Part shown: positions 12,079 to 34,653 of the stretch, piece by piece
Numbering within the stretch: position 1 is the stretch's first letter
Layout of the letters: the number at the start of each line of letters is the position of its first letter
Origin: Micrococcaceae bacterium RIT 802
GTDB lineage: Bacteria > Actinomycetota > Actinomycetes > Actinomycetales > Micrococcaceae
DNA length: 64,000 bases
NCBI GenBank assembly: GCA_016892645.1
Contig: JAFEMX010000010.1
Location: 62,001-126,000 of the forward strand
Reading direction: 5' to 3'
Program-made: the position numbers and the translations under genes
Notes under the pieces: model-generated
Databases searched by the model: none
Told to the model about the DNA's origin: nothing
What the model saw: only the letters and a program-made list of their open reading frames with translations

Positions 12079-13791
12079 TCAAAGCCTGCGGCGGCCGGCC
12101 AGCAGGCCGTGCAGCAGGGGCAGCACCGACACGCCCATCAGCACGGTACCCAGCACCTGGTCATCCGGCCGGACCAGCGCTCCGGCAATGAGCAGTGCCG
12201 CGAAGACCAGCGCCGAAATGGCCCGTCGCGCCGTGCGCTCCAGGCGGGCCACCTGGCGTTCGAGGCGCGGCGTGGCGACCGCGAGCGACCCGTCCTCCAG
12301 ACGGGTGACCACCCCGTCCAATCGCCCGGGCAGACGCACCGCCGTCGTCACCGCGTCGAGTGCATGTTGGGCCACGTCCTGGACGAGGTTTCCGCGCTCC
12401 TCGCGTAGCAGTTGCGCCGCGTAGGGCTCCACGGTGTCCCAGAGGTTGAACTTCGGATCCAGGGAACTGCACACCCCGGAGGTCAGCGACATCGCCCGGA
12501 TAATGAGCAGGAAGTTCTCCGGCAGCTGGAACGGCAGGGACCGGACCACATCACCGAACTCGGCGGCGAAATCCCGGAATTCGCGTGGATCCACCTCGCG
12601 CAGTTCGGCAAATCCCATCCCGCCGAACCGGGCGAAGAGGTGCGTCATGGCCCGTTCGAGTTCAGCGGTATCGGCGGTGGGCAGCAGCACCCCCACCTCG
12701 CCGATGGCGGCGACCAACCCCTTGCCGTCGCGCGACGCGGCGGCGATCAGCAGTTTGCGCAACCCGCGGCGGGTGCCCGGGGGCACGTCGCCCATCATGC
12801 CGAAGTCGATGAACGTCAGCTTCCACGGGCGCCCGGCCACCGGTTGGGCGGTGGGCGTGACGAAGATGTTGCCCGGGTGCGGATCTGCGTGGAAGAAGCC
12901 GCTGCCGAACAGCTGGTCGAACATGACCGCGCCGAAGGCGGGGGCGACCTCCGCCGGGTCGATGCCCGCCGCGCGCAGCCCCTCCAGGTCGGAGATTTTG
13001 ATGGCCGTGACGTCCTCGAGCGCCAGCACGCGTCGGCTGGTCCGTTCCCAGACGATCCGGGGCACGGCAACGGCGTCGTTGTCGGCGAATTCGTCGGCGA
13101 AGCGTTCTGCTTGCGCGGCCTCGTGCAGGTAGTCGATCTCCTCCAGGCTGGTGTGGGCGAACTCCTCGACCAGCGCCGGCATGTCGGCGCGACGAGACAC
13201 CAACCGGATGTGGCTGAGCCAGCCGCCGACCTTGCGCAGCGCGGCGAGGTCCACGTCGACGATCGCCTCGATGCCCGGGCGTTGGATCTTCACGATGACG
13301 CCCGCGAACCCGACGTCGGCGGCGGCTTCGGGCAGCAGCTGCGCCCGGTGCGCCTGGCCCAGGGATGCCGCCGCGACGGGCGTCTCATCCACCCATGCGA
13401 AGACTCGATCCAGCGGCGCGCCCAGTTCGGCCTCGGCCAGGGCCCGCACGTCGGCAAACGGGACCGCTGGCACTTCGTCCTGCAGCCCCTCCAGTTCCGC
13501 GGTGATCTCGGGCGGGAGCACGTCGAGCCGGGAGGAGAGGAATTGCCCGACCTTGATCATCAGCCCACCGAGTTCCACCGCCAGGGCGTGGAAGCGTTGC
13601 GCGAAGCGGCGCATCCGCCGAGCCCGCGAGCGTTCGGCGAGCCTGGCCAGGCCGATGCGGGGCAGGAACAGCTCGAACCACCAGATGACCGCCAGATGCC
13701 AGGCGGCGAACCGCAGGATCCGGCGGTAGCGGGCGCGGGTGCTTCCGGCCCCCGATGCCGGGCGTGCCGGGCCCCGGCCACGTGATGTCAC
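12079..13791 (-). CDS. ABC1/AarF/UbiB-family atypical kinase
   Basis: This 570-residue protein starts at GTG 13791. It has the family KxGQ region (GLMIKVGQFLSSRLDVLP, about 77-94), an Ala-rich nucleotide loop AAASLGQAHRA and ADPHPGNIF with the metal-binding DFG-like FIDFGMMG. Two C-terminal hydrophobic helices (about 520-560) anchor it to the membrane. UbiB/ADCK proteins support quinone or lipid metabolism by an ATPase activity; the substrate here is unknown. It is cotranscribed with the PadR regulator, whose stop lies 5 bases upstream, so its expression is probably under PadR control. Confidence 0.88.
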   Translation of the reverse strand: MTSRGRGPARPASGAGSTRARYRRILRFAAWHLAVIWWFELFLPRIGLARLAERSRARRMRRFAQRFHALAVELGGLMIKVGQFLSSRLDVLPPEITAELEGLQDEVPAVPFADVRALAEAELGAPLDRVFAWVDETPVAAASLGQAHRAQLLPEAAADVGFAGVIVKIQRPGIEAIVDVDLAALRKVGGWLSHIRLVSRRADMPALVEEFAHTSLEEIDYLHEAAQAERFADEFADNDAVAVPRIVWERTSRRVLALEDVTAIKISDLEGLRAAGIDPAEVAPAFGAVMFDQLFGSGFFHADPHPGNIFVTPTAQPVAGRPWKLTFIDFGMMGDVPPGTRRGLRKLLIAAASRDGKGLVAAIGEVGVLLPTADTAELERAMTHLFARFGGMGFAELREVDPREFRDFAAEFGDVVRSLPFQLPENFLLIIRAMSLTSGVCSSLDPKFNLWDTVEPYAAQLLREERGNLVQDVAQHALDAVTTAVRLPGRLDGVVTRLEDGSLAVATPRLERQVARLERTARRAISALVFAALLIAGALVRPDDQVLGTVLMGVSVLPLLHGLLAGRRRL

Positions 13792-23712: not shown

Positions 23713-24906
23713 ATGATGGCCATCGAGACGGCCGAGAACGGCACCGCCGACCTGGCCAAGGCCGGGGAGTTCCTCCAACTGCTCCGCGACGGACGGCCCC
23801 GCACGCGCGCCGAGTTGGCGCAGGTGACCGGCATGGCAAGGTCGACCATTGCCTCACGCGTCGAGACGCTTCTGCAGCTGGGTTATGTCTCCCCCGTGGG
23901 TGATTCGACGTCAACCGGTGGACGCCCACCCTCACTCTTCGCCTTAAATCCGAACGCTCGCGTCGTCATCGGCGCAGACCTCGGAGCGACGCACGCGCGG
24001 GCCGTATTGGCGAACCTAGCCGGTGAAGTGAAGGCAGAGTTCTGGGAGCCCCTGCCCATTGCGGACGGACCAGAGAAAGTCGTCGGATGGCTGGCTCAAA
24101 CCATCGGTAGGTTGCTCGAGGAGGCGGAATGCACCGCTTCCGACTTGGCCGCCATCGGCGTCGGCCTTCCTGGCCCCGTCGAATTCCAGACAGGCCGTCC
24201 CGTGAGCCCGCCGATCATGCCGGGGTGGGATGGGTATGACCTGCCAGCACGGCTCCACAGGGAATACGACGTTCCGGTACTCGTCGACAACGACGTGAAC
24301 ATCATGGCCCTTGGCGAGTACAAAGCGAACCTGCCCAACGACCAGGACATACTATTCGTCAAGGTCGCCACCGGCATTGGTGCAGGTCTCGTGGCCCACG
24401 GGCAATTGATGCGCGGCGCCCAAGGTACCGCTGGCGACCTGGGGCACGTTCGTGTTCCCGGCGGGCCAGATACGTTGTGCACTTGCGGCAACGTTGGCTG
24501 CTTGGAGGCCGTTGCCAGTGGCCCGGCCATAGCCAAGAAGCTCGGCCTCGCAGCCGAGCCCGGTCAAAACATCCCCTCGTTGGTCGCGCAACGAGTCCGC
24601 GATGGCGACGCGGAGGTGATCGCAGCAGTCCGCCAGGCCGGGAGGGACCTAGGCAGTGTTCTCGCAACCTGCGTCAGCATGCTGAATCCGTCGGTGATCG
24701 TCGTCGGTGGTTCGCTGGCCCAGGTCGGTGAGCACCTTTTAGCGGGAATACGTGAAGTCGTCTACCAGCGGTCACTGCCACTGGCGACGAAACATCTGCG
24801 GATTATCGCGTCTACGGCTGGCTCGCATGCAGGCGTCCTGGGGGCCGTGGCACTGGCTACCGATTTTGCCCTCTCAGCCAGCGCGATTGAAACGACACGC
24901 TGCTAG
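23713..24906 (+). CDS. ROK-family transcriptional regulator
   Basis: This 397-residue NagC/XylR-type protein has an N-terminal winged helix (RAELAQVTGMARSTIASRVETLLQLGYV, about 32-59) fused to a ROK sugar-kinase-like domain. The DLGATHARAVLANLAG phosphate-like motif opens that domain and VDNDVNIMALGEY follows. The zinc site CTCGNVGCLEAVASG is present near residue 257. The catalytic Asp (VDND) is kept, as in many regulators, but ligand sensing rather than catalysis is expected. It is divergent from the two-dehydrogenase sugar operon and is its likely repressor, released by the imported sugar. GAGGA precedes two tandem ATG codons (23713 and 23716). Confidence 0.88.
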   Translation: MMAIETAENGTADLAKAGEFLQLLRDGRPRTRAELAQVTGMARSTIASRVETLLQLGYVSPVGDSTSTGGRPPSLFALNPNARVVIGADLGATHARAVLANLAGEVKAEFWEPLPIADGPEKVVGWLAQTIGRLLEEAECTASDLAAIGVGLPGPVEFQTGRPVSPPIMPGWDGYDLPARLHREYDVPVLVDNDVNIMALGEYKANLPNDQDILFVKVATGIGAGLVAHGQLMRGAQGTAGDLGHVRVPGGPDTLCTCGNVGCLEAVASGPAIAKKLGLAAEPGQNIPSLVAQRVRDGDAEVIAAVRQAGRDLGSVLATCVSMLNPSVIVVGGSLAQVGEHLLAGIREVVYQRSLPLATKHLRIIASTAGSHAGVLGAVALATDFALSASAIETTRC

Positions 24907-25308
24907 CAACTGAAGGCTGCTCACCAGCATCTTCAGCGATCAGAACCTCGTTTCTACGAGGACCCCTCAACTCGTCGACATGGGGACGTAATCAGGCATG
25001 GTTGCCATTCCGACCGACGATGGACGCAGCAAAACAGGCTCCCGGGCAAGTCCGATTCCATTCAACGCGATGCCCCTGCCCCCCACTAAATACAGGTGCC
25101 GGTCAGCAAATATACGGCCCACATCACCGGACACGGCGAAGCGATGTCCGACGCCGGTCTATCACCAGAACGCATTGTTTCGCGCGCATACGCCACGATG
25201 AGGGGGATTCTCGCGCCAACCGCACGCTGCATTTAGACCACACGAAATTGCGCCATTGATTGCTCGGTGGACGGAAAGTGGTCTCCCGAAATCGTCAATC
25301 CAAAGGCA
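24907..25308. other. Non-coding left border of the defence island
   Basis: About 400 bases after the ROK gene have no convincing gene: two overlapping frames of 60-85 codons lack ribosome binding sites and look random. GC falls steadily toward 25300. TTTCTACGAGGACCCC near 24950 is a possible weak hairpin region. No tRNA, integrase site or repeat was recognised, so how the island entered cannot be read here. Confidence 0.5.
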
Positions 25309-25343
25309 TTGACACCCTTCATTTCCGATATATAGTCAATATA
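25309..25343 (+). promoter_or_regulatory. Near-consensus promoter giving a leaderless transcript
   Basis: TTGACA at 25309-25314, a 16-base spacer and TATAGT at 25331-25336 match a primary-sigma promoter closely. The ATG of the first island gene begins at 25343, only 6 bases after the -10 box, so transcription should start on or next to the A of the start codon. No ribosome binding site is present. Confidence 0.75.
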
Positions 25344-25594
25344 TGTCCGATAAATTCTCCGAACGTAAGTTGTACGAGTCTCGAAACGATAGATTTCGCC
25401 GGTTGGCTTCCACTCGAGGGGATCGACTTATTCGAGAGATTTCCTTACTGGGCAACCTAGCCAACCGAAAGAACTACGAGTACACGTCCGATGAGGTGGA
25501 AGCTCTTTTTCGCCCCATAGAGGTCGAGCTCCAAGAGGTGCGTGCCCTCTTCGATCCCGCATCTCCCTCCGAAAGAAAGGTGTCATTCGAATGA
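25343..25594 (+). CDS. Small conserved protein opening the GHKL defence operon
   Basis: This 83-residue, highly charged, helical protein has a central LLGNLANRKNYEYTSDEVEALF (about 35-56). From memory this type of segment recurs in small proteins next to restriction and GHKL-ATPase genes, but I know no function. No membrane helix, cysteine pair or nuclease motif is seen. It is read from a leaderless promoter at 25309 and its stop overlaps the GHKL ATPase start as ATGA, so the two are translationally coupled and may form a complex. A regulatory or scaffolding subunit is a guess. Confidence 0.7.
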   Translation: MSDKFSERKLYESRNDRFRRLASTRGDRLIREISLLGNLANRKNYEYTSDEVEALFRPIEVELQEVRALFDPASPSERKVSFE

Positions 25595-27474
25595 CCGATC
25601 AGAACTTCGGCTTCTACTTCGAAGCCGCCGGCAAGGCAGCCACCCAAGGCGCAATTTCTCCTGCCGCACAGTTCTTCGAAGGCTCACGGGCTGAAACGTC
25701 CTTGGTCCGCGAGACGGGACAAAACTCCATCGATGCCGGCGCCGGCGCCGTGAAAATAGTTTTCGAATTGGCCGACATGCCCACAGACGACATTCCAGGA
25801 ATCGCTGGTTTGCGAACCCATCTGGCACAGGTGGAAGAGCAGACACGGGGTTCCCAAGGGCACGACAACATGGAGTTGGCGAATGAGACGTCACTGCGAA
25901 CGTCGATTCCGGTGCTGCGCATCAGTGACTATGGCACCAAAGGCCTGGCCGGCACAGAGTCCATCAATGACCCCAAGTCCCCGCTCAGCGCCCTGACGAG
26001 GGGCGCGGGAATCTCCGCTGACGACGGATCCCGCGGCGGTTCCTTCGGAATCGGTTCGGCCGTAGGACCTATGGCCTCGGACATGAGCACCGTCCTCTAC
26101 ACATCCCTCCCCTTGGGCGGCAACGAAGTGGTCTTCGCCGGTTACAGCTGCCTGGCTTCCCACCGTGACACCGAGGGGATCTGGCGAGTGGGGGACGGTT
26201 TCTTCACGGACCGAGCTCACGCAGAAGACTTCCGCTACTTGCGTGACCCCGAACCCATCGGGCCATTCCCAAAACGAACGGACGCCGGGACCGACCTTTA
26301 CATCCTTGGATACCGCAAAGCCGAAGAGGACCCCACCCTTCAGCACATCAAGGTCGCCTTCATGAGGAATTTCCTCATGGCCATCCACAGAGGCGAACTC
26401 GTCGTCGAGGGAAAGACCCCAATAGGAACATGGCGTCTGGATGCCGAAAAGCTCAAGACCCACGTGGCCGAAGACCAGGAAACCGCGGCTTTCTACCGCG
26501 CGATCACGGACCCAAATCCGATCCTCGGAACCCACGATATGCTCGGCCAAATCAGCCTGTACATCAACGTCGACGACTCCCTATCGAAATCGCTGCATAC
26601 CATCGCCGTCCGGAAACCGCTCATGAAAATCGACACCTTCAAACACACCTCGATTCCAGTGAAGTACGCAGCTGTGCTGGAGTGCTCCGATGAGAAGGGC
26701 AACACCCTCTTGCGCAAGCTCGAGCCACCCCAGCACCACAAGTGGGATGCCGGGCGGTCACCTGGGGGCGGGAAAATCATCAGCGACCTCAAGACTTTCG
26801 TCCGCAACGGTCTCAAGAGTCGGGTCAAGGAGCAAATCGGAGAACAGGTCCACGTCAAAGGCCTATCCAAATACCTTCCGGACGAGTTGTTCGAAGAGAG
26901 GACTCTGACCGAAGCCGCGCCCGCAGGCACCCCGGGCACAGGGTCAGGAACCACTAGGGAGTCCAGCACGGTCCAAGGCCGCGCAGGAGAGGACATGCCC
27001 GCCTCCGCCAGCGGTCGAAAGGCCGTCAGCGTCCGGGTGAAGACCTCGGCCGGCGGCGAGGGCTCGTCCCCTGCCGAAAAGGGGAAGGATGCGGGCGGAG
27101 GCAAGAAGCGCAACAACAAGGGTGGGAACATCGCGGGCGGTGGCACGGAAGGTGATGGAACGGGCCGCATCAGCGCCGGTGACATCCGATTCCGGAGCTG
27201 GTCCGATGCCACCACCGGTGACGTCTGCCTCGCACTGACCTCCCCAGAAGACATTTCCGGTGACGTGCAGCTTCTCGCGCTCGGACCGGGCGGGAGCGTC
27301 GAGGAGGACTACGAGCTGCCGATCGACAACGCCTCCATCATTACCGCAGGGGTTACTACCCCGCTCAAGCACAAGGGAAATATTTTGGCCCAACTGGAAC
27401 TCAAGGCCGGGACCACATCTCAGGTCCGACTCAAGCTTTCGTCCAATCACCGCTACCGTCTGGGGATCAAATGA
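25591..27474 (+). CDS. GHKL (MutL/MORC/Hsp90-type) ATPase of a defence module
   Basis: This 627-residue protein has a Bergerat-fold ATP site: N-box RETGQNSIDAG (E41, N45, D48), a second motif DYGTKG (D113, G115, G118) and a glycine-rich lid GGSFGIGS (149-156). Residues about 160-430 resemble the transducer region of such ATPases. A Gly/Lys/Ser-rich, probably disordered linker (about 440-545) leads to a small beta-rich C-terminal domain. ATPases of this class are known from bacterial restriction-linked operons, where they are thought to act as ATP-driven clamps. Here it is coupled to the genes before and after by ATGA overlaps. No helicase is encoded beside it. Confidence 0.8.
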   Translation: MTDQNFGFYFEAAGKAATQGAISPAAQFFEGSRAETSLVRETGQNSIDAGAGAVKIVFELADMPTDDIPGIAGLRTHLAQVEEQTRGSQGHDNMELANETSLRTSIPVLRISDYGTKGLAGTESINDPKSPLSALTRGAGISADDGSRGGSFGIGSAVGPMASDMSTVLYTSLPLGGNEVVFAGYSCLASHRDTEGIWRVGDGFFTDRAHAEDFRYLRDPEPIGPFPKRTDAGTDLYILGYRKAEEDPTLQHIKVAFMRNFLMAIHRGELVVEGKTPIGTWRLDAEKLKTHVAEDQETAAFYRAITDPNPILGTHDMLGQISLYINVDDSLSKSLHTIAVRKPLMKIDTFKHTSIPVKYAAVLECSDEKGNTLLRKLEPPQHHKWDAGRSPGGGKIISDLKTFVRNGLKSRVKEQIGEQVHVKGLSKYLPDELFEERTLTEAAPAGTPGTGSGTTRESSTVQGRAGEDMPASASGRKAVSVRVKTSAGGEGSSPAEKGKDAGGGKKRNNKGGNIAGGGTEGDGTGRISAGDIRFRSWSDATTGDVCLALTSPEDISGDVQLLALGPGGSVEEDYELPIDNASIITAGVTTPLKHKGNILAQLELKAGTTSQVRLKLSSNHRYRLGIK

Positions 27475-28331
27475 GCAGCACCACCCGCGGCTCGTACCCG
27501 CACCCCGTACTCGACGATTCGGACGACGTCGATGCCGAAATCGAGGTCTTCAACGCATCGTTCGCCCCGAGCGTCGATGACGTCGAAATCAAGTTCCAAG
27601 TGCGCATGACCGAGCCGCGGATCCAGGTCCTCATCGACGAGGGGTCGGCTCGTTACAGCTTCCGGTGGTCCTGCACTGCCACCCTTGCCAACGAGGAACT
27701 AGGTGCCGAGATCAACATGTATCATGCCGACAGCACCGGCTACGTCGGATGGATCGACCAGCAATCGATCAGCGGCACGGTCAGAATCGAAATGAGAGTC
27801 ATCGCCACCAAGCCCATCGGGAATTACCGGCCGGAAAACCAGCACCCCGACTACGGCGACGCGGACTTTCACCTCCTGCCCGGCGACATTCTCGCAGATG
27901 CAGGCGTCCTCGAATTCGAGGCTGAGAAGCTCTACGACCCGCTCAACCCGCCCCTCGGGTCGTGCTTCAAATTCGTTGCCGATTCCAACATGAAGCGCGG
28001 CTTGCGGGTCAGGTTCGACGACGACGAGCACATTCTCGTGACCTTCCCCGTAGAAGTTCTGCACGGGTTCGGCATGCTCCGCAACCGTCAAGACCTGCAA
28101 ATCAGTCTCGTCGTCCTCCCCGCCCTGATGGAAACTATCTCCTTCATCAAGGCTAATGAAACGTCCGGCGACGAAGACGAAAATCTGACCGACAGGCATT
28201 GGTACACCGCCATAACCCGGCTAATGCAAGCATCACGTTCCAGCGACATGCGCCCATTCGAGATGGCACAGGAAATCCTCGGTAACCCCTTGGACACATC
28301 TCTCACCACCTTCGACGATTTGGGGGACTAA
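27471..28331 (+). CDS. Beta-rich hypothetical protein coupled to the GHKL ATPase
   Basis: This 286-residue acidic protein begins with a conserved-looking SYPHPVLDDSDDVDAEIEVF, followed by alternating strands to about residue 210. The helical tail contains HWYTAITRLMQ and PFEMAQEILGNPLD. No catalytic motif is evident. I believe similar proteins opening with YPxPVLxxxDDV accompany GHKL ATPases in other defence operons, but this is from memory. The start overlaps the ATPase stop (ATGA). It may recognise phage structure or DNA, or serve as a partner of the ATPase; nothing in the sequence decides this. Confidence 0.65.
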   Translation: MSSTTRGSYPHPVLDDSDDVDAEIEVFNASFAPSVDDVEIKFQVRMTEPRIQVLIDEGSARYSFRWSCTATLANEELGAEINMYHADSTGYVGWIDQQSISGTVRIEMRVIATKPIGNYRPENQHPDYGDADFHLLPGDILADAGVLEFEAEKLYDPLNPPLGSCFKFVADSNMKRGLRVRFDDDEHILVTFPVEVLHGFGMLRNRQDLQISLVVLPALMETISFIKANETSGDEDENLTDRHWYTAITRLMQASRSSDMRPFEMAQEILGNPLDTSLTTFDDLGD

Positions 28332-28334
28332 ACA

Positions 28335-29090
28335 ATGGAAGATAACCGCGCCCGCTCACTCACCCACCAGGCCTTGGTCGAGCTCCAATCCGCGCTCGAC
28401 GCCGCCAATACCTACGAAGACTTCTTGGCCCACGCGGACACGATCGTTCACCGTGAGGAGAACCAGCTGGAATTGCCGGTGGAGCTAGGGGCCCCAGAGC
28501 ATCTGGACGCCACGAAAGTCGCTGGACGCGACGTACAGAATGCCCCCCTCGTGTATGAGTATCTAGGAGCTTTGGACCGCGCCAACGCCTCGGACCGACG
28601 GCTATGGACCTTCCTCGCATTTTCGACGTACCGCGAATACATGGAAAACCGCTGGCCACTGGCCGAAGTACGCAATTGGAAAGGCCGTGTTCGAGACCGC
28701 TGGCTTATGGGCAACTCCACCCGAGGGCGGCTGATCAGGCACGGCATTGCTCGTCTCTGGTGGGTGTCCTCCCTGACCTACGACCCCCAAACGAAGCATC
28801 CCCTAGCACAAGCCGCGGGCGACCCCTTCGCCTATACACGCGAGGCCTTCAAGAATGAGGACCGGCTCAATGCCCTATTCGATCGGGAGGCCGGAGCGCT
28901 GCCCGACCTAGTCCGCAGCGTCCTCGAATACGCAACCCAAGGCGGCCCGCAGGCCACAGACAAGCACCTCCAAGTCATAATGAAGGAAATGACGCTTGTC
29001 TACGGATACCGCGACATCTCCTATTTGGATGCAGATGGCTTGCGTTCCCTCGTCGCCGAATCCGCACCCCCCGTTCCTGCAGGCAAATGA
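28335..29090 (+). CDS. DUF6339-like protein of the GHKL module
   Basis: This 251-residue helical protein has a core ASDRRLWTFLAFSTYREYMENRW (about 85-107), then RDRWLMGNSTRGRLIRHGIARLWW (about 120-143) and YTREAFKNEDRLNALFDRE. These Trp- and Arg-rich blocks match my memory of the DUF6339 family, which is found in operons with GHKL ATPases and Z1 helicases. No enzymatic motif is known for the family. The gene starts 4 bases after the previous stop, and the operon's tight spacing ends with it: 138 bases separate it from the HNH nuclease. Family assignment is tentative; membership of the module is secure. Confidence 0.6.
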   Translation: MEDNRARSLTHQALVELQSALDAANTYEDFLAHADTIVHREENQLELPVELGAPEHLDATKVAGRDVQNAPLVYEYLGALDRANASDRRLWTFLAFSTYREYMENRWPLAEVRNWKGRVRDRWLMGNSTRGRLIRHGIARLWWVSSLTYDPQTKHPLAQAAGDPFAYTREAFKNEDRLNALFDREAGALPDLVRSVLEYATQGGPQATDKHLQVIMKEMTLVYGYRDISYLDADGLRSLVAESAPPVPAGK

Positions 29091-29228
29091 ACATGGCAAG
29101 CCGTTCTAGACGGTGCGGGTACCACTGCGCCATCACAGGCGGACATGGGCCTATGGATTCACAAGAAAAGCAAAATGCCACGCAACACCATGCAGCGAAT
29201 TTTTTGCGCCGAGAGCTGGAGAGACCAC

Positions 29229-30422
29229 ATGGACACCGAAAAGAATGTCGCGCCAAGTGGATTAACTGCCACAGAAGCGGCCGTACGACTTGGGCTTGAT
29301 CCAAAGACGTTGCGCCAGAAACTACGCGACGGAGTCCTTCTTGGCCACCAGATCCACGGCAACCGATGGAATGTTCAGGAAAGCGATCTGGCTGCCTATG
29401 CCCGCAGTGTGGGCAATGGCGGTCGACAATCACCGGTCATCCCCTCCCCTGTCTTTTCCCCGGTTACCGACAATCCGACTGAGGTCGTGGGAACTAGGGC
29501 ATGGTTGTTGCTGGCAGTATCCGGGGGGCGAGCCTTCGGCAGCAACGACGGCTACGACGACAAGCCCACGACCCACTACAGGTGGGATGACACCGTCGGC
29601 AATCACGGCCATATCAACGTGGGGGACGCGGTGGTGCTCTGGGACAAGAAGGCCAGTATTGGGGCTTCAGTCATCGAATCGATCGAAACCCAGCATGGAA
29701 ACAAGCGAGTGTACAGCTGCCCGAACTGTGGCAAGGCCTCCTTCAAGGAACGCAAGACCAAGCAGCCCCGATATCGGTGCTTCAAGTGTGGCAAAGACTT
29801 CGACCAGCCGGTGAGCAAACGCAAGGATGTCCTCGAATATACCGCCCAATACCAGACATCGTGGGTCGGCCTCGAAGGGCTGCTCGACGGTGCCACGCTA
29901 CGGGCATCATGCATACATCCAAGAGCCCAGCTCAGCATACGGAACCTTAATTGGCAGAAGTTCCACGATGCCGTGTCAGCAGCCAGCGGACCGGAACTGA
30001 TGACAGTTTTGGAGGCCTCGAAGCGAACCATTGCCGGCGGACACCGGACCGCCAACGTTCGCGTGCGAGTTGGGCAAGGGTCCTTCCGTCACGATCTGCT
30101 GGCCTCTAGGGGAAACATCTGTGCCTTCACCGGTCCCACGCCGGCCCAGGCCTTGGAAGCTGCCCACCTCTACAGTTTCGCAACGGTCGGTGAACACCAC
30201 GAGCATGGTGGTCTGTTGATGCGTCGTGACCTACACCGCCTTTTCGACCTCGGTCTGATCGCCATCAATCCGGCCAACCAAACTATTAGCGTCTCGAAGA
30301 CCCTCGCCGGGTATCCACACTACGGCGAGATGGAAGGCAAACCGCTGCACGTGGAATTGAGAGGACGACAGCTGAGCTGGCTGACCGAGCACTGGGAGGA
30401 ACACCGCACGGGCAAGAGTTAA
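29229..30422 (+). CDS. HTH / EVE-like / zinc-ribbon / HNH nuclease
   Basis: This multidomain protein of 397 residues starts at ATG 29229 behind GGAGAG. Residues 11-60 form an excisionase/MerR-like helix-turn-helix (LTATEAAVRLGLDPKTLRQ). Residues about 88-155 look like an EVE/PUA-type domain (AWLLLAVSGG to GDAVVLWDKKASIGASVIE), and C164/C167 with C184/C187 make a zinc ribbon. Residues about 285-345 are an HNH_2 nuclease (C298, EAAH with H313, LHRLFD with H336). EVE-HNH fusions are known modification-dependent restriction enzymes that cut phage DNA with altered cytosines. This one has an extra DNA-binding head and zinc ribbon. The EVE call is by pattern only. Confidence 0.72.
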   Translation: MDTEKNVAPSGLTATEAAVRLGLDPKTLRQKLRDGVLLGHQIHGNRWNVQESDLAAYARSVGNGGRQSPVIPSPVFSPVTDNPTEVVGTRAWLLLAVSGGRAFGSNDGYDDKPTTHYRWDDTVGNHGHINVGDAVVLWDKKASIGASVIESIETQHGNKRVYSCPNCGKASFKERKTKQPRYRCFKCGKDFDQPVSKRKDVLEYTAQYQTSWVGLEGLLDGATLRASCIHPRAQLSIRNLNWQKFHDAVSAASGPELMTVLEASKRTIAGGHRTANVRVRVGQGSFRHDLLASRGNICAFTGPTPAQALEAAHLYSFATVGEHHEHGGLLMRRDLHRLFDLGLIAINPANQTISVSKTLAGYPHYGEMEGKPLHVELRGRQLSWLTEHWEEHRTGKS

Positions 30423-30571
30423 GTCGTCCCACGACCCATCACACCACGCCCCCGACTGACGACTTGTCGGTGGCGGCTGCGATGCTAGCCATCCCAACTA
30501 GACATCAAGGGGAAGTTTTCCCCCGGCGGTGTTCCGTACGGCGTGGCATTTACCGATTCGCCTCGAAATGC

Positions 30572-30582
30572 GACATGATGTC
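30572..30582. promoter_or_regulatory. Palindrome before the methyltransferase gene
   Basis: GACAT-G-ATGTC at 30572-30582 lies 25 bases upstream of the methyltransferase GTG. The gap 30423-30607 carries no gene. The methyltransferase has its own N-terminal helix-turn-helix, so this could be an autoregulatory control site of the restriction-modification pair. Confidence 0.45.
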
Positions 30583-30607
30583 ATGTAGTTAACCCAGATA
30601 GGATGCC

Positions 30608-31849
30608 GTGGAAACGTCGACTGAACTTCTTGCCCTCGCCCGTGCACGCTACACACAGCGTCAGCTCTCCGAGCAACTCGGAGTTACCGGCCGAACAATC
30701 GCCCGGTGGGAACACGGCGAGACCCCCTTGCCGACCATGCTGGCGCCTGCCTTGCGTGAGCTACTGGGCATGAAACCGGCCGCAGAGGATGCTGAGTTCC
30801 GGTTTATCGACCTATTCGCCGGCATCGGCGGGATCCGCAAGGGATTTGAGTCCCATGGGGGGCGGTGCGTGTTCACCAGTGAGTGGAACGATTGGGCGAA
30901 GAAGACCTACCTGACCAACTTCCCCGATGAGAATGATCCCGAGCACGTTTTCATCGGCGACATCCAGCCCCTCCCTGCCGCCGAGGTCGCCGACCACGAC
31001 GTGTTGCTTGCGGGGTTCCCCTGCCAGCCCTTCTCCATAGCCGGCGTGAGCAAGAAGAACGCCTTAGGCCGGGCTCACGGCTTCGAGGACGCCACCCAAG
31101 GCACCCTGTTCTTCGACGTGGCCCGGATCATCGATGAAAAACGCCCCGCCGCGTTCATGCTGGAGAACGTGAAGAACCTACGCTCCCACGACAAGGGCCG
31201 CACTTTCGCAGTCATCATGGCCACCCTGGAAGAGGAACTGGGCTACCAGGTCCACACCAAGGTGATCGACGGAATCAGCTTCACCCCGCAGCACCGCGAA
31301 CGCATCATCATTGTCGGTTTCCGCGAGCCGACCGATTTCAGCTGGGACGACTTGGAATTGCCACCAGTTGGTCCGAAGCTAGAAACCATCCTTCACCGCA
31401 CCGACGGCACGGAACCGGTCTTGGAATGGGACGGGGATCGATTCTTCGACCACGACAACGCGTCCGTGCAGCCGAAGTACACTTTGACACCGAAACTGTG
31501 GGCCTACCTGCAGGCCTACGCCGCCAAACACAAGGCCGCCGGCAATGGGTTCGGGTTCGGGTTGGTCCATCCCTCTGGAACCTCCCGCACCCTCTCCGCC
31601 CGCTACTACAAGGATGGTTCCGAGATCCTCGTCGCCCAAGGCGCGGGCCGGCCTCGACGCCTGACCCCTCGTGAGTGCGCTAGGCTGATGGGCTTCGATG
31701 ACAGCTACCGGATCCCCGTCAGCGACACCCAGGCTTACCGGCAATTCGGCAACAGTGTCGTGGCCCCGGTCATGGCAGAGATCGCTCGCATCATGACCCC
31801 CCACGTCCAAACCATCCTGGCCCGGCAGGAGAACCCGCTGGTGGCCTAG
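30608..31849 (+). CDS. Dcm/M.EcoRII-type DNA (cytosine-5) methyltransferase
   Basis: This 413-residue enzyme is complete. It has an N-terminal XRE-like helix-turn-helix (about 15-36), motif I FAGIGG (70-75), motif [10 protein letters not shown] with catalytic C139, motif VI ENV (186-188), motif VIII QHRER (228-232) and C-terminal motif X QFGNSVV. The target-recognition region has [20 protein letters not shown] and [16 protein letters not shown], closely resembling E. coli Dcm and M.EcoRII. It therefore predicts methylation of the inner cytosine of CCWGG. It starts with GTG 30608 behind AGGA, 54 bases before the EcoRII-like nuclease gene. It protects host DNA from that enzyme. The CCWGG specificity is inferred from similarity. 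Confidence 0.9.
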
Positions 31850-31903
31850 GCCGACACCTGACAGGCCTACCCCGTAGATAATGCTCGACACCAAGGAGAA
31901 TTC

Positions 31904-33166
31904 GTGGAACTCGGCCATCTGGCCGACCATTTCGACGGCGTGGCCGCCAAGGTCCTCAGCCGCGTCGAGACGGTCGGGCATGGATCCCACCAACATGAAC
32001 TCGCCGGAACTCGAGCATTCCGGGAGCTATTCGGAGCGCCGGCCGGTAGTGTGCCGCTGTCCACCAGATTCATATGGGCCACAGATGAAACAGATGAGCC
32101 GGTTGTCGAGGAGGGGACTCTCACTTACTACGACGCCCGCGCCGCCAACCCACACCGAGGTGCCGAATTCCGCCTTTACTACCCAGCTCATGTGGAGGCG
32201 ATGAAGAATGCCCAGCCCGGCGACGTCGTTTTCATCGCACGCCAAAAGGACGGGTCGGTGCTTCTCATCGTCGCGCCAAGCGGCTCGAGCGTAGCTGCGC
32301 AACTGGACTGGCTTTTCGGCACCGACGCCCTCGAGCGCCACGAATACTCCGTACGCAGCAACCTGAATGAGAACCGGGACGAGCTTGGGCTTCCGGCCCT
32401 GTATCTGCTGGACATGCTCGGCATCGTCGTAGAGCCCATCATCGAGCCTGCTGGCGAGAGTTGGCTCGAACAACTCATTAATAAGTTCGGTTCAAAGTTT
32501 CCGCCGACTGCCGAATTCGGGGCCTTCGCACGCTCCACCCTCCCAGATCTAGATGCCCGAGAAGACCCTGACGGCGTGCTGATGGCTTGGTTAGAACGCG
32601 AGGAACTCCTTTTCCGCACTCTGGAACACCATTTGGTCACAGACACCCTCAATGCCATCTACATTAGAGGCCAGGTCGACGTGGACCAGTTCGTCGCCGA
32701 ATCCCTGCGCATCCACAACCGACGCAAAAGCCGGGCCGGCAAAAGCTTGGAGCACCATCTCATCGCAATCTTCAATGCCCTTGAAATCCGGCATTCCTTC
32801 GACAAAGCAACCGAAAACGATGTCCGACCCGACTTCATCTTCCCCAGCATCGAGGACTATCATGACCCCGCCGTCCCGGCCTCACAGCTGACGGTCCTGG
32901 GGGCGAAAACCACTTGCAAGGATCGCTGGCGCCAGGTCCTCAGCGAAGCAGAACGCATCGGGCAAAAGCATCTACTCACTCTCGAGAGCCCCATCAGTCT
33001 GGGACAGACAAAGGAAATGCAGACCCAGAAACTGCAACTGGTGATCCCCAAGCCCCTTCATTCCCCTTACAAGCAGGAGCAACAATCGTGGCTGATGGAC
33101 GTCGCCGCGTTCACCGAACTAGCCAAAGCTCGGGATCAGCACGGTCCTTCGTCTAATATCTTCTGA
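31904..33166 (+). CDS. EcoRII-type type IIE restriction endonuclease
   Basis: This 420-residue protein is full length for EcoRII. The N-terminal half (about 1-190) corresponds to the effector-site DNA-binding domain. The C-terminal half carries the PD-(D/E)XK-like catalytic core: RPDFIFPS with D310, then LTVLGAKTTCKDRWRQVL with K335 and R341, and KHLLTLESPIS. The D-x24-K-x5-R spacing is what I recall for EcoRII. Type IIE enzymes need two copies of their site, one as allosteric effector, so phage with sparse sites escape. It starts at GTG 31904 behind AAGGAG, directly after the matching methyltransferase. Cleavage before CCWGG is predicted. Confidence 0.9.
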   Translation: MELGHLADHFDGVAAKVLSRVETVGHGSHQHELAGTRAFRELFGAPAGSVPLSTRFIWATDETDEPVVEEGTLTYYDARAANPHRGAEFRLYYPAHVEAMKNAQPGDVVFIARQKDGSVLLIVAPSGSSVAAQLDWLFGTDALERHEYSVRSNLNENRDELGLPALYLLDMLGIVVEPIIEPAGESWLEQLINKFGSKFPPTAEFGAFARSTLPDLDAREDPDGVLMAWLEREELLFRTLEHHLVTDTLNAIYIRGQVDVDQFVAESLRIHNRRKSRAGKSLEHHLIAIFNALEIRHSFDKATENDVRPDFIFPSIEDYHDPAVPASQLTVLGAKTTCKDRWRQVLSEAERIGQKHLLTLESPISLGQTKEMQTQKLQLVIPKPLHSPYKQEQQSWLMDVAAFTELAKARDQHGPSSNIF

Positions 33167-33247
33167 CCTCGGCTCAAAACCTGCGTCACGCCGATACACA
33201 TTGCACGGATACTCCGATACCGCTCAAAGAGAAGGTAAGTTCAGCCC

Positions 33248-33445
33248 ATGTCACAGAAGAAGATTGCCCTCGAATTCGACATAGACAGTGTCACCGATGC
33301 CCGGGCCTTGGCTAGGGCTCTGAGATCAGTCTTCGAAGCCAGCAGGGTCGGCGACGGGACCATATACATTGAGGGTTTCGCCATGAACCCCAAGGACGGA
33401 TGGAGCCGCGGCGACCACTGGATCGACATAATCAACAAGGCCTAG
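33248..33445 (+). CDS. Small hypothetical protein at the end of the defence island
   Basis: This 65-residue protein, MSQKKIALEFDIDSVTDARALA and on to DHWIDIINKA, is predicted alpha/beta with a helix at about 18-31 and strands around it. No motif is recognised. GAGAAGG at 33229-33235 lies about 12 bases before the ATG, a plausible ribosome binding site. It follows EcoRII by 81 bases on the same strand and shares the island's lower GC. It could be an accessory of the restriction system or an unrelated cargo gene. Confidence 0.5.
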   Translation: MSQKKIALEFDIDSVTDARALARALRSVFEASRVGDGTIYIEGFAMNPKDGWSRGDHWIDIINKA

Positions 33446-33581
33446 AGCACCATGTTTCCTGTTCTCCAAGGAAGTTCCTCATGCCGGATGACCGGAGAAA
33501 TTGCCCGCATTCGACGATGCCCGCCACCCCCAAGGCGCCGTCCTATAGAGTCGATGGAATGAGCGGATCCAAAGAGCGTGC

Positions 33582-34180
33582 ATGACTGCCCCCACGCAAC
33601 GGGCAGCGTCCAAGACTGCCACTCAGCAGCGGATCGTGGACGCCGCCTTCACGCTTTTCCGTGAGCACGGCTATGAGGCCACGACGATGTCCCACATCGC
33701 CCGTCAGGCAGAGACCAGCCGCCCCAATCTGTATCTGCACTTCACGTCCAAGACGCAGATCGTGCTCGACCGGATGAAGTCCATCGAGCCCAGCGCCACG
33801 TCCATGTATAACGAACTTGGTGATCTGGAGGCCTTCACGACGGACAACATGCTGGATTGGCTGCGGTCGACGGGCAAGGACATGTGGCGCAGCCACAGTG
33901 CAGAATTCGATGCGATCAACCGAGCCACGACGACCGATGACGAGGTCCTGGATGAGTGGCTCGGGCTGCATCGACGGATCAGTTCCCGACTCGCAGACCG
34001 GTTGTGCCGGACCTGGACGGTGACGATCGCACGGCGTGGCAAACCTACCTGACAACGCTTTTGGTGGGATTGGAGCGCAACTTCTATTTCATCTACATCA
34101 GGGGCCACGCAGAGCGGGAAGAATTCGCCCTGCGTGGCCTGGCCCACCAATGGGCCGGATTCCTAGGTGCCCAATACTAG
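33582..34180 (+). pseudogene. TetR-family regulator with a frameshift
   Basis: The N-terminal part (33582 to about 34000) is a good TetR protein: QQRIVDAAFTLFREHGYEATTMSHIARQAETSRPNLYLHF is the helix-turn-helix. After SRLADRL the frame changes. The current frame ends in 15 unrelated residues at 34052, while the neighbouring frame continues sensibly as VPDLDGDDRTAWQTYLTTLL to GFLGAQY, with stop at 34180. One inserted or deleted base in the CGGTTGTGCCGG region (about 33998-34010) explains this. It is either a recent mutation or a sequencing error. No clear target gene lies beside it. Confidence 0.75.
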
Positions 34181-34320
34181 AACGGCACCGACAACGCAGA
34201 CTGCCTCACATACGAACACGCCTGATCCTCAAGCCATTCCGCCTTGTCACCCACCCCGACAGATGCCAAGCTGTCTGCACCCACAACGTCGTGGACCCAG
34301 GCCTTTGGAAGGAACCTGTC

Positions 34321-34653
34321 ATGGACGGATACGCCATCGAAGATAGCGGCGACGGCGCTTCACGAGCCATCAGCGCGGCCCACGACCGGCTTGCGGCTTC
34401 GGATGCCATCCGCTCTGCGCTTGAATCGCATGACGAATCAGTGGTCCGGGAAAGTGTCGACCTGGCCTTGAACCTATTCGGCGGCCATCCTCCACATTCA
34501 GTTGGAGCAGTTGTGGCAGGCTATGCCGCAGAGTTGACCGCGGTGGGAGCCATTTGTCGTTCAACTACTGGTGAACCACCGATGGACTCCGCAGACATGT
34601 TGTCGCTCGGCGATGTCTTGCGTCGCATCGTAAACGGCTTGTTCGACAAATAG
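34321..34653 (+). CDS. Hypothetical protein, 110 residues
   Basis: This small, mainly helical protein starts at ATG 34321 after GGAAGGAAC. It includes AISAAHDRLAASDAIRSALESHD and the hydrophobic stretch SVGAVVAGYAAELTAVGAI, which is too polar to be a sure membrane helix. No known domain is recognised. It ends 2 bases before the next gene, a small membrane protein, so the two are probably cotranscribed. GC is intermediate between the defence island and the chromosomal background. Function unknown. Confidence 0.6.
   Translation: MDGYAIEDSGDGASRAISAAHDRLAASDAIRSALESHDESVVRESVDLALNLFGGHPPHSVGAVVAGYAAELTAVGAICRSTTGEPPMDSADMLSLGDVLRRIVNGLFDK

Follow-up and report, generated by a model that had tools for sequence, protein, structure and literature searches.

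What do four tightly coupled genes, built around a GHKL ATPase and lying directly upstream of restriction genes, do for the bacterium that carries them? The question is raised by a 64,000-nucleotide stretch of Micrococcaceae bacterium RIT 802 (contig JAFEMX010000010.1, positions 62,001 to 126,000; hereafter the window), in which the genes encode a small protein (S), the ATPase (A) and two further proteins (B and C). The first-pass annotation had taken this module for either a helicase-free anti-phage system or a sensor for the adjacent nucleases. We favor the half of that proposal that makes it an accessory of nucleases, because the module repeatedly re-associates with restriction loci that contain a C5 cytosine methyltransferase. 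Judged from sequence, S-A-B-C may be a portable accessory, built on a MutL-like ATPase, that serves restriction-modification loci, chiefly those based on 5-methylcytosine (m5C), a reading to which we give about an even chance. Its most likely role, proposed with the same reserve, would be to help control DNA cutting by the linked restriction systems.

Is the module a real unit? Loci were collected from plasmids (23 records), one metagenomic phage record, 57 genome loci and four viral contigs; the genome loci are skewed toward A members bearing GGSFG(I/V/F)G, because a narrower A alignment served as the genome-scan query. Hidden Markov models (HMMs) of A, B and C were run on 73 loci, with 68 making up the non-redundant set (L-numbers denote loci of this survey). 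All 73 contained A, 72 contained B and 71 contained C, the genes following one another as A-B-C on a single strand; the incomplete loci were L015, truncated by the record end, and L083, where neither B nor C matched. The A-B and B-C gene pairs mostly overlap or nearly touch. Carriers span Actinomycetota, Bacillota, Bacteroidota, Pseudomonadota, Deinococcota, candidate phyla and one haloarchaeon. This recurrence of A-B-C is far beyond chance. Distances between homologues correlated at 0.83 for A-B and 0.81 for A-C, and none of 500 permutations reached values as high. We conclude that A, B and C behave as one co-evolving unit, a complex-like gene set that stays together.

The company that the module keeps is more specific still. 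A C5 methyltransferase was detected by HMM in 47 of the 68 loci, and seven others carried N6 or N4 methyltransferases recognized by domain or motif. Among genome loci, the C5 enzyme was present in 35 of 44, compared with 0.5 expected from its per-genome number, and where a genome encoded a single C5 methyltransferase, that enzyme sat in the module locus in 21 of 22 cases. Vsr accompanied the C5 methyltransferase in 22/47 module loci but in only 2/30 of the C5-methyltransferase loci that these genomes carry elsewhere (Fisher p 1.5e-4, an indicative figure because the loci are partly related by descent and not fully independent). The cutting enzymes vary from locus to locus: EcoRII, Sau3AI/MutH-like, HpaII, HNH_2, Mrr and type I enzymes all occur, as do McrBC-like pairs (AAA_5 with PDDEXK_7/DUF2357) and enzymes annotated as MmeI or AlwI. 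The breadth across phyla, together with the poor match between the tree of A and those of methyltransferase and Vsr (values below), argues for repeated re-association of the module with C5-methyltransferase restriction loci. The module appears as a portable unit that moves between bacteria and resettles time and again beside cytosine-methylating restriction systems.

Protein A has the features expected of a GHKL enzyme. The motifs that had been read in it were all there: E41/N45/D48, D113-Y-G-T-K-G118 and GGSFGIG (149-155); A also carries G233-T234. When residue conservation was scored over 62 homologues, E41, Q44, N45, D48, D113, G118, G150, S151, G153, G155 and G233 were invariant, as were R341, M345 and E378xxxH382 further downstream, the ExxxH pair (E378/H382) being present in 62/62. 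A keeps every catalytic GHKL residue. In Iyer et al. 2008 (PMC2292703), paraMORC2 is recognized by an ExxxH motif within the C-terminal portion of S5, and A carries this motif together with GHKL motifs I-IV, which are invariant or nearly so among the homologues. Invariant R341 fits the basic residue published for the S5 fold, a match at the level of the residue. Two other placements were rejected. The S5 motif of the MORC family proper, GhXhhpXXRhl, occurred in 0/62 members. No nuclease domain was matched in A by Pfam or PADLOC and, in particular, no C-terminal PD-(D/E)XK domain, which sets it apart from the Shedu-like GHKL-nucleases (paraMORC3, VcSduA).

Might a helicase be hidden in the module or supplied from elsewhere? 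The window proteins were compared with Pfam, PADLOC and NCBIfam, and none of these sets matched a helicase domain, Z1 included, inside S, A, B or C, or Z1 or DUF4420 anywhere in the window locus. The window's own genome gave no Z1 match at E <= 1e-10. Across 50 module-bearing genomes or records, Z1 occurred in two and lay near the module in one (L023), in a separate operon on the opposite strand. Hence the survey agrees with the annotation's picture of a GHKL module that is tightly coupled, lacks a helicase and lies among restriction genes, with A-B-C in nearly all loci and Z1 almost never nearby.

Relatives with a helicase do exist. Three actinobacterial operons (L096-L098), found independently, read Z1 (MzaC-like), DUF4420, GHKL, a middle gene and DUF6339; Z1 was a search match in all three, and the Z1 and DUF4420 domains were scanned in L097. 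Their GHKL protein is homologous to A (hhalign 99.6%, E 7e-25) and their DUF6339 protein to C (96.2%, E 2.7e-9). B showed no detectable relation to the middle-gene products of L097 and L098, the two that were compared. The comparison with Z1-linked GHKL operons drawn in the annotation was therefore apt, and the helicase-free and Z1 forms are sisters. At L096 11847-13691, inside the Z1/GHKL operon, DUF6339 is naturally fused to a C5 cytosine methyltransferase, which suggests that C contacts the methyltransferase side. A putative 'type I' system described in PMC9523054 consists of a Z1 protein, a PD-(D/E)XK protein (its domain printed as DUF4220), a cytosine methyltransferase and three more genes, and is associated with DNA repair endonucleases; the L096-L098 operons probably represent it.

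How might the module act? MutL activates MutH. It also binds Vsr and stimulates it (PMC6116569). The MutL proteins of E. coli and Neisseria are, like A, GHKL ATPases, and their partners, Vsr and a MutH-family nuclease, are of kinds that both recur beside the module; unlike them, A has no detectable sequence relation to MutL and no MutS partner was seen at the module, and MutL serves as a working analogy. By that analogy, A would dimerize and close upon ATP. B, C and, in loci that have it, S would be obligate subunits that load A on DNA or couple it to its partners. Once closed, the complex would act as MutL does toward MutH and Vsr: it would direct or license the nucleases encoded alongside (in the window, the HNH and EcoRII-type enzymes) on DNA recognized as foreign from its methylation state, and stronger phage restriction would be the outcome. 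If one portable module does serve many unrelated restriction enzymes, type II restriction would in part come under energy-driven adaptor control, and the link among MutL-like repair ATPases, m5C methylation and defense would become directly testable.

Several observations weigh against this proposal. About 14 of the 68 loci, part of them on short contigs, had no linked DNA methyltransferase; a methyltransferase is therefore not obligatory, and this is the chief argument against a strict subunit role. Tree and distance agreement was weak between A and the methyltransferase (0.29) and stood at 0.06 between A and Vsr, not significant. Profile comparison of A gave nothing significant, whether against HATPase_c_3 proteins or against solved structures (PDB), and HATPase_c_3 matched one of the 62 A members, weakly (0.0016). 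Because those searches were silent, the assignment of A as a GHKL ATPase rests on its motifs.

Could S-A-B-C act alone, with the restriction genes adjacent merely through shared defense islands? As an independent anti-phage system, which we regard as a tentative possibility, the module would sense phage DNA or takeover and then, in a mode of action just as tentative, clamp DNA or abort infection. In its favor, A-B-C by itself figures in PADLOC as a candidate system, some loci lack a linked methyltransferase, partners are swapped freely, and on plasmids the module also lies near AbiG, Shedu-annotated genes and AIPR. However, no nuclease, helicase or recognizable killing domain was found in the four proteins (Pfam, PADLOC, NCBIfam and the models of B and C). 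Nor does island sharing predict that single C5 methyltransferases should sit in the module locus almost without exception, that Vsr should be enriched above other C5 methyltransferases, or that DUF6339 should be fused to a methyltransferase in a sister operon.

In a broader proposal, S-A-B-C would be a general ATP-driven adaptor, a conserved four-protein clamp that serves unrelated nucleases and alters their target choice; we think this doubtful. Its clients would include EcoRII, Sau3AI, HpaII, HNH, McrBC-like and type I nucleases, with Z1 plus DUF4420 as one interchangeable cutter, an extension that we likewise consider rather unlikely. If true, ordinary type II systems would have been turned into ATP-dependent, regulated ones. 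The common view of type II restriction enzymes is that they need no ATPase partner.

The recurrence of Vsr raises the question of host protection. The module might guard the m5C-methylated genome as a substitute for MutL, working with Vsr, and the enrichment of Vsr, the stimulation of Vsr by MutL (PMC6116569) and the GHKL architecture of A with its ExxxH are what such a role would lead one to expect. Deamination mismatches or hemimethylated sites would be found, and self-cutting restrained or repaired. Both the role and this mode of action seem improbable to us: at over half of the loci, that of the window among them, Vsr is absent beside the module, there is no co-evolution between A and Vsr, and the module is also found next to genes of type I and of Mrr-like or McrBC-like systems. 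That the module is the decayed remnant of a Z1 system, carried passively after loss of helicase and nuclease, is very unlikely and largely refuted even though Z1 plus DUF4420 operons hold homologous GHKL and DUF6339 proteins, because a passive remnant would not keep catalytic residues invariant across phyla and frames intact and coupled.

Has the module been described before? The annotation had thought not, but A, B and C match PDC-M33 of PADLOC, and Iyer et al. 2008 (PMC2292703) had earlier reported ATPases of this kind from restriction operons. The PADLOC matches are contiguous and ordered (A 6.8e-83 to PDC-M33A, B 4.7e-33 to PDC-M33B, C 7.2e-31 to PDC-M33C) and cover A and B at nearly full length and the last three quarters of C. 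PDC-M33 thus has the same three proteins in the same order, while S is unmatched in the PADLOC set. PDC-M33 is a catalogued defense candidate, and the window module is a new member of it within the paraMORC theme. Our literature search found no paper naming PDC-M33 or DUF6339. To PDC-M33 the present analysis adds a fourth gene, a partner rule (an m5C methyltransferase, often with Vsr), a relative in the Z1 operons and two predicted folds (B and C).

Other known systems are similar in part. The portion of PMC2292703 used here describes restriction operons with ATPases of this kind, which in a minority of cases lack a helicase, and stresses superfamily II helicases as partners, in about 70% of MORC operons. 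The paraMORC2 ATPases described there share with the module the GHKL motifs, the basic residue and ExxxH, as well as nearby C5 methyltransferases, Vsr and endonucleases; helicase partners are usual there, unlike at the module, and B, C and S are unnamed in that portion of the paraMORC2 account. The Z1 plus DUF4420 operons share the homologous GHKL and DUF6339 proteins and the C5-methyltransferase link, but differ in the Z1 helicase, the DUF4420 nuclease and the middle protein. MzaABCDE likewise has a GHKL gene in a defense operon, there with Z1, DUF4420-like and AIPR genes, whereas Z1, DUF4420 and AIPR are all absent from the window locus. MzaB was rejected as a relative of A (hhalign probability 0.3, E 0.22, from a shallow profile). 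The HEF_HK / Response_reg_2 pair (PMC8011034) is also GHKL-bearing and lies by C5 methyltransferase, Vsr, HNH_2 and EcoRII-C, but it consists of other proteins in another architecture. Double-GHKL proteins of the HEF_HK type adjoin the module and a C5 methyltransferase in L042, L047 and L071, two GHKL systems at one restriction locus (the domain scan covered L042, and L047 and L071 were assigned by shared cluster).

Features of the module and its associated genes in the window
Feature	Position	Strand	Evidence
S: small protein, 83 amino acids, first gene of the module	25343..25594	+	Open reading frame; HMM upstream of A in relatives
A: GHKL ATPase, 627 amino acids (PDC-M33A; paraMORC2-like)	25591..27474	+	PADLOC, motifs
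B: 286 amino acids (PDC-M33B), N-terminal beta-sandwich, C-terminal helical part	27471..28331	+	PADLOC, AlphaFold2
C: DUF6339 (PF19866; PDC-M33C), 251 amino acids	28335..29090	+	Pfam, PADLOC, AlphaFold2
HTH_17 + zinc ribbon + HNH_2 nuclease, associated gene	29145..30422 (longest open reading frame)	+	Pfam
Dcm-type C5 cytosine methyltransferase, N-terminal helix-turn-helix, associated gene	30608..31849	+	Pfam, PADLOC, NCBIfam
EcoRII-C type II restriction endonuclease, associated gene	31904..33166	+	Pfam, PADLOC

The four reading frames run head to tail exactly as first annotated, with ATGA overlaps at S/A and A/B and a gap of 3 bases between B and C. The fourth protein had been called DUF6339-like, and Pfam agrees (1e-37); NCBIfam names none of the four proteins and Pfam names C alone. 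S had no match in Pfam, NCBIfam or PADLOC, and no related solved structure was found for it. Its conserved core reads RFxRLAexR...LLGNxxNrxNYxYt...vxxxFxxIExEL. An S match lay immediately 5' of A in 33 of the 68 loci, and within the Micrococcaceae S occurred in 4/245 genomes, all of them A-bearing and always adjoining A. In S the module therefore has a fourth conserved gene beyond the PADLOC trio.

B starts with the motif YPhPVL..DD. Its AlphaFold2 model shows a beta-sandwich followed by a helical tail (pLDDT 89.7, pTM 0.63), the domain arrangement being uncertain because of the low pTM, and it matched solved structures only weakly, at beta-sandwich domains. The model of C is confident and almost all-helical (pLDDT 93.2, pTM 0.90), with a conserved WW at 142-143. 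It had no counterpart in the PDB or among viral models, and C is predicted to adopt a new, all-alpha fold. Neither model matched a nuclease fold, and we rejected B and C as nucleases.

The locus is an island of sporadic occurrence, probably acquired (about 24900-34600), because G+C drops to 0.56-0.62 over 25-34 kb compared with 0.62-0.70 around it, homology to a same-genus relative stops behind a ROK regulator gene, where the relative carries other genes, and A was found in only 5/295 genomes of the Micrococcaceae sample. The relative's contig ends 1.6 kb past the ROK-side break, which leaves the right junction unreadable. A TetR gene at 33582 had no close match in 28 relatives.

The HNH_2 gene likely starts near 29229 in place of 29145. 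On visual inspection, a segment of its product between HTH_17 and HNH_2 (GDAVVLWDKKASIGASVIESIE), followed by the zinc ribbon, looks similar to EVE/PUA-like modified-base readers, and the nuclease is possibly a type IV, modification-dependent restriction enzyme. Relatives of this gene lie close to the module in three loci, L105, L012 and L103, in the last of them a few bases behind C.

The usual place of S upstream of A is filled by an AIPR protein in L019 (an Enterococcus plasmid) and by a ribbon-helix-helix protein in L017 (a haloarchaeal plasmid), and L059 (Omnitrophota) has an extra S copy behind C (13364-13657). Divergent genes lie upstream of S in two Arthrobacter-like loci, encoding a Swt1-like HEPN plus DUF3320 protein in L105 (11514-12698) and a DUF3320 protein in L011 (6489-7619); these DUF3320 proteins are a possible further partner of the module.

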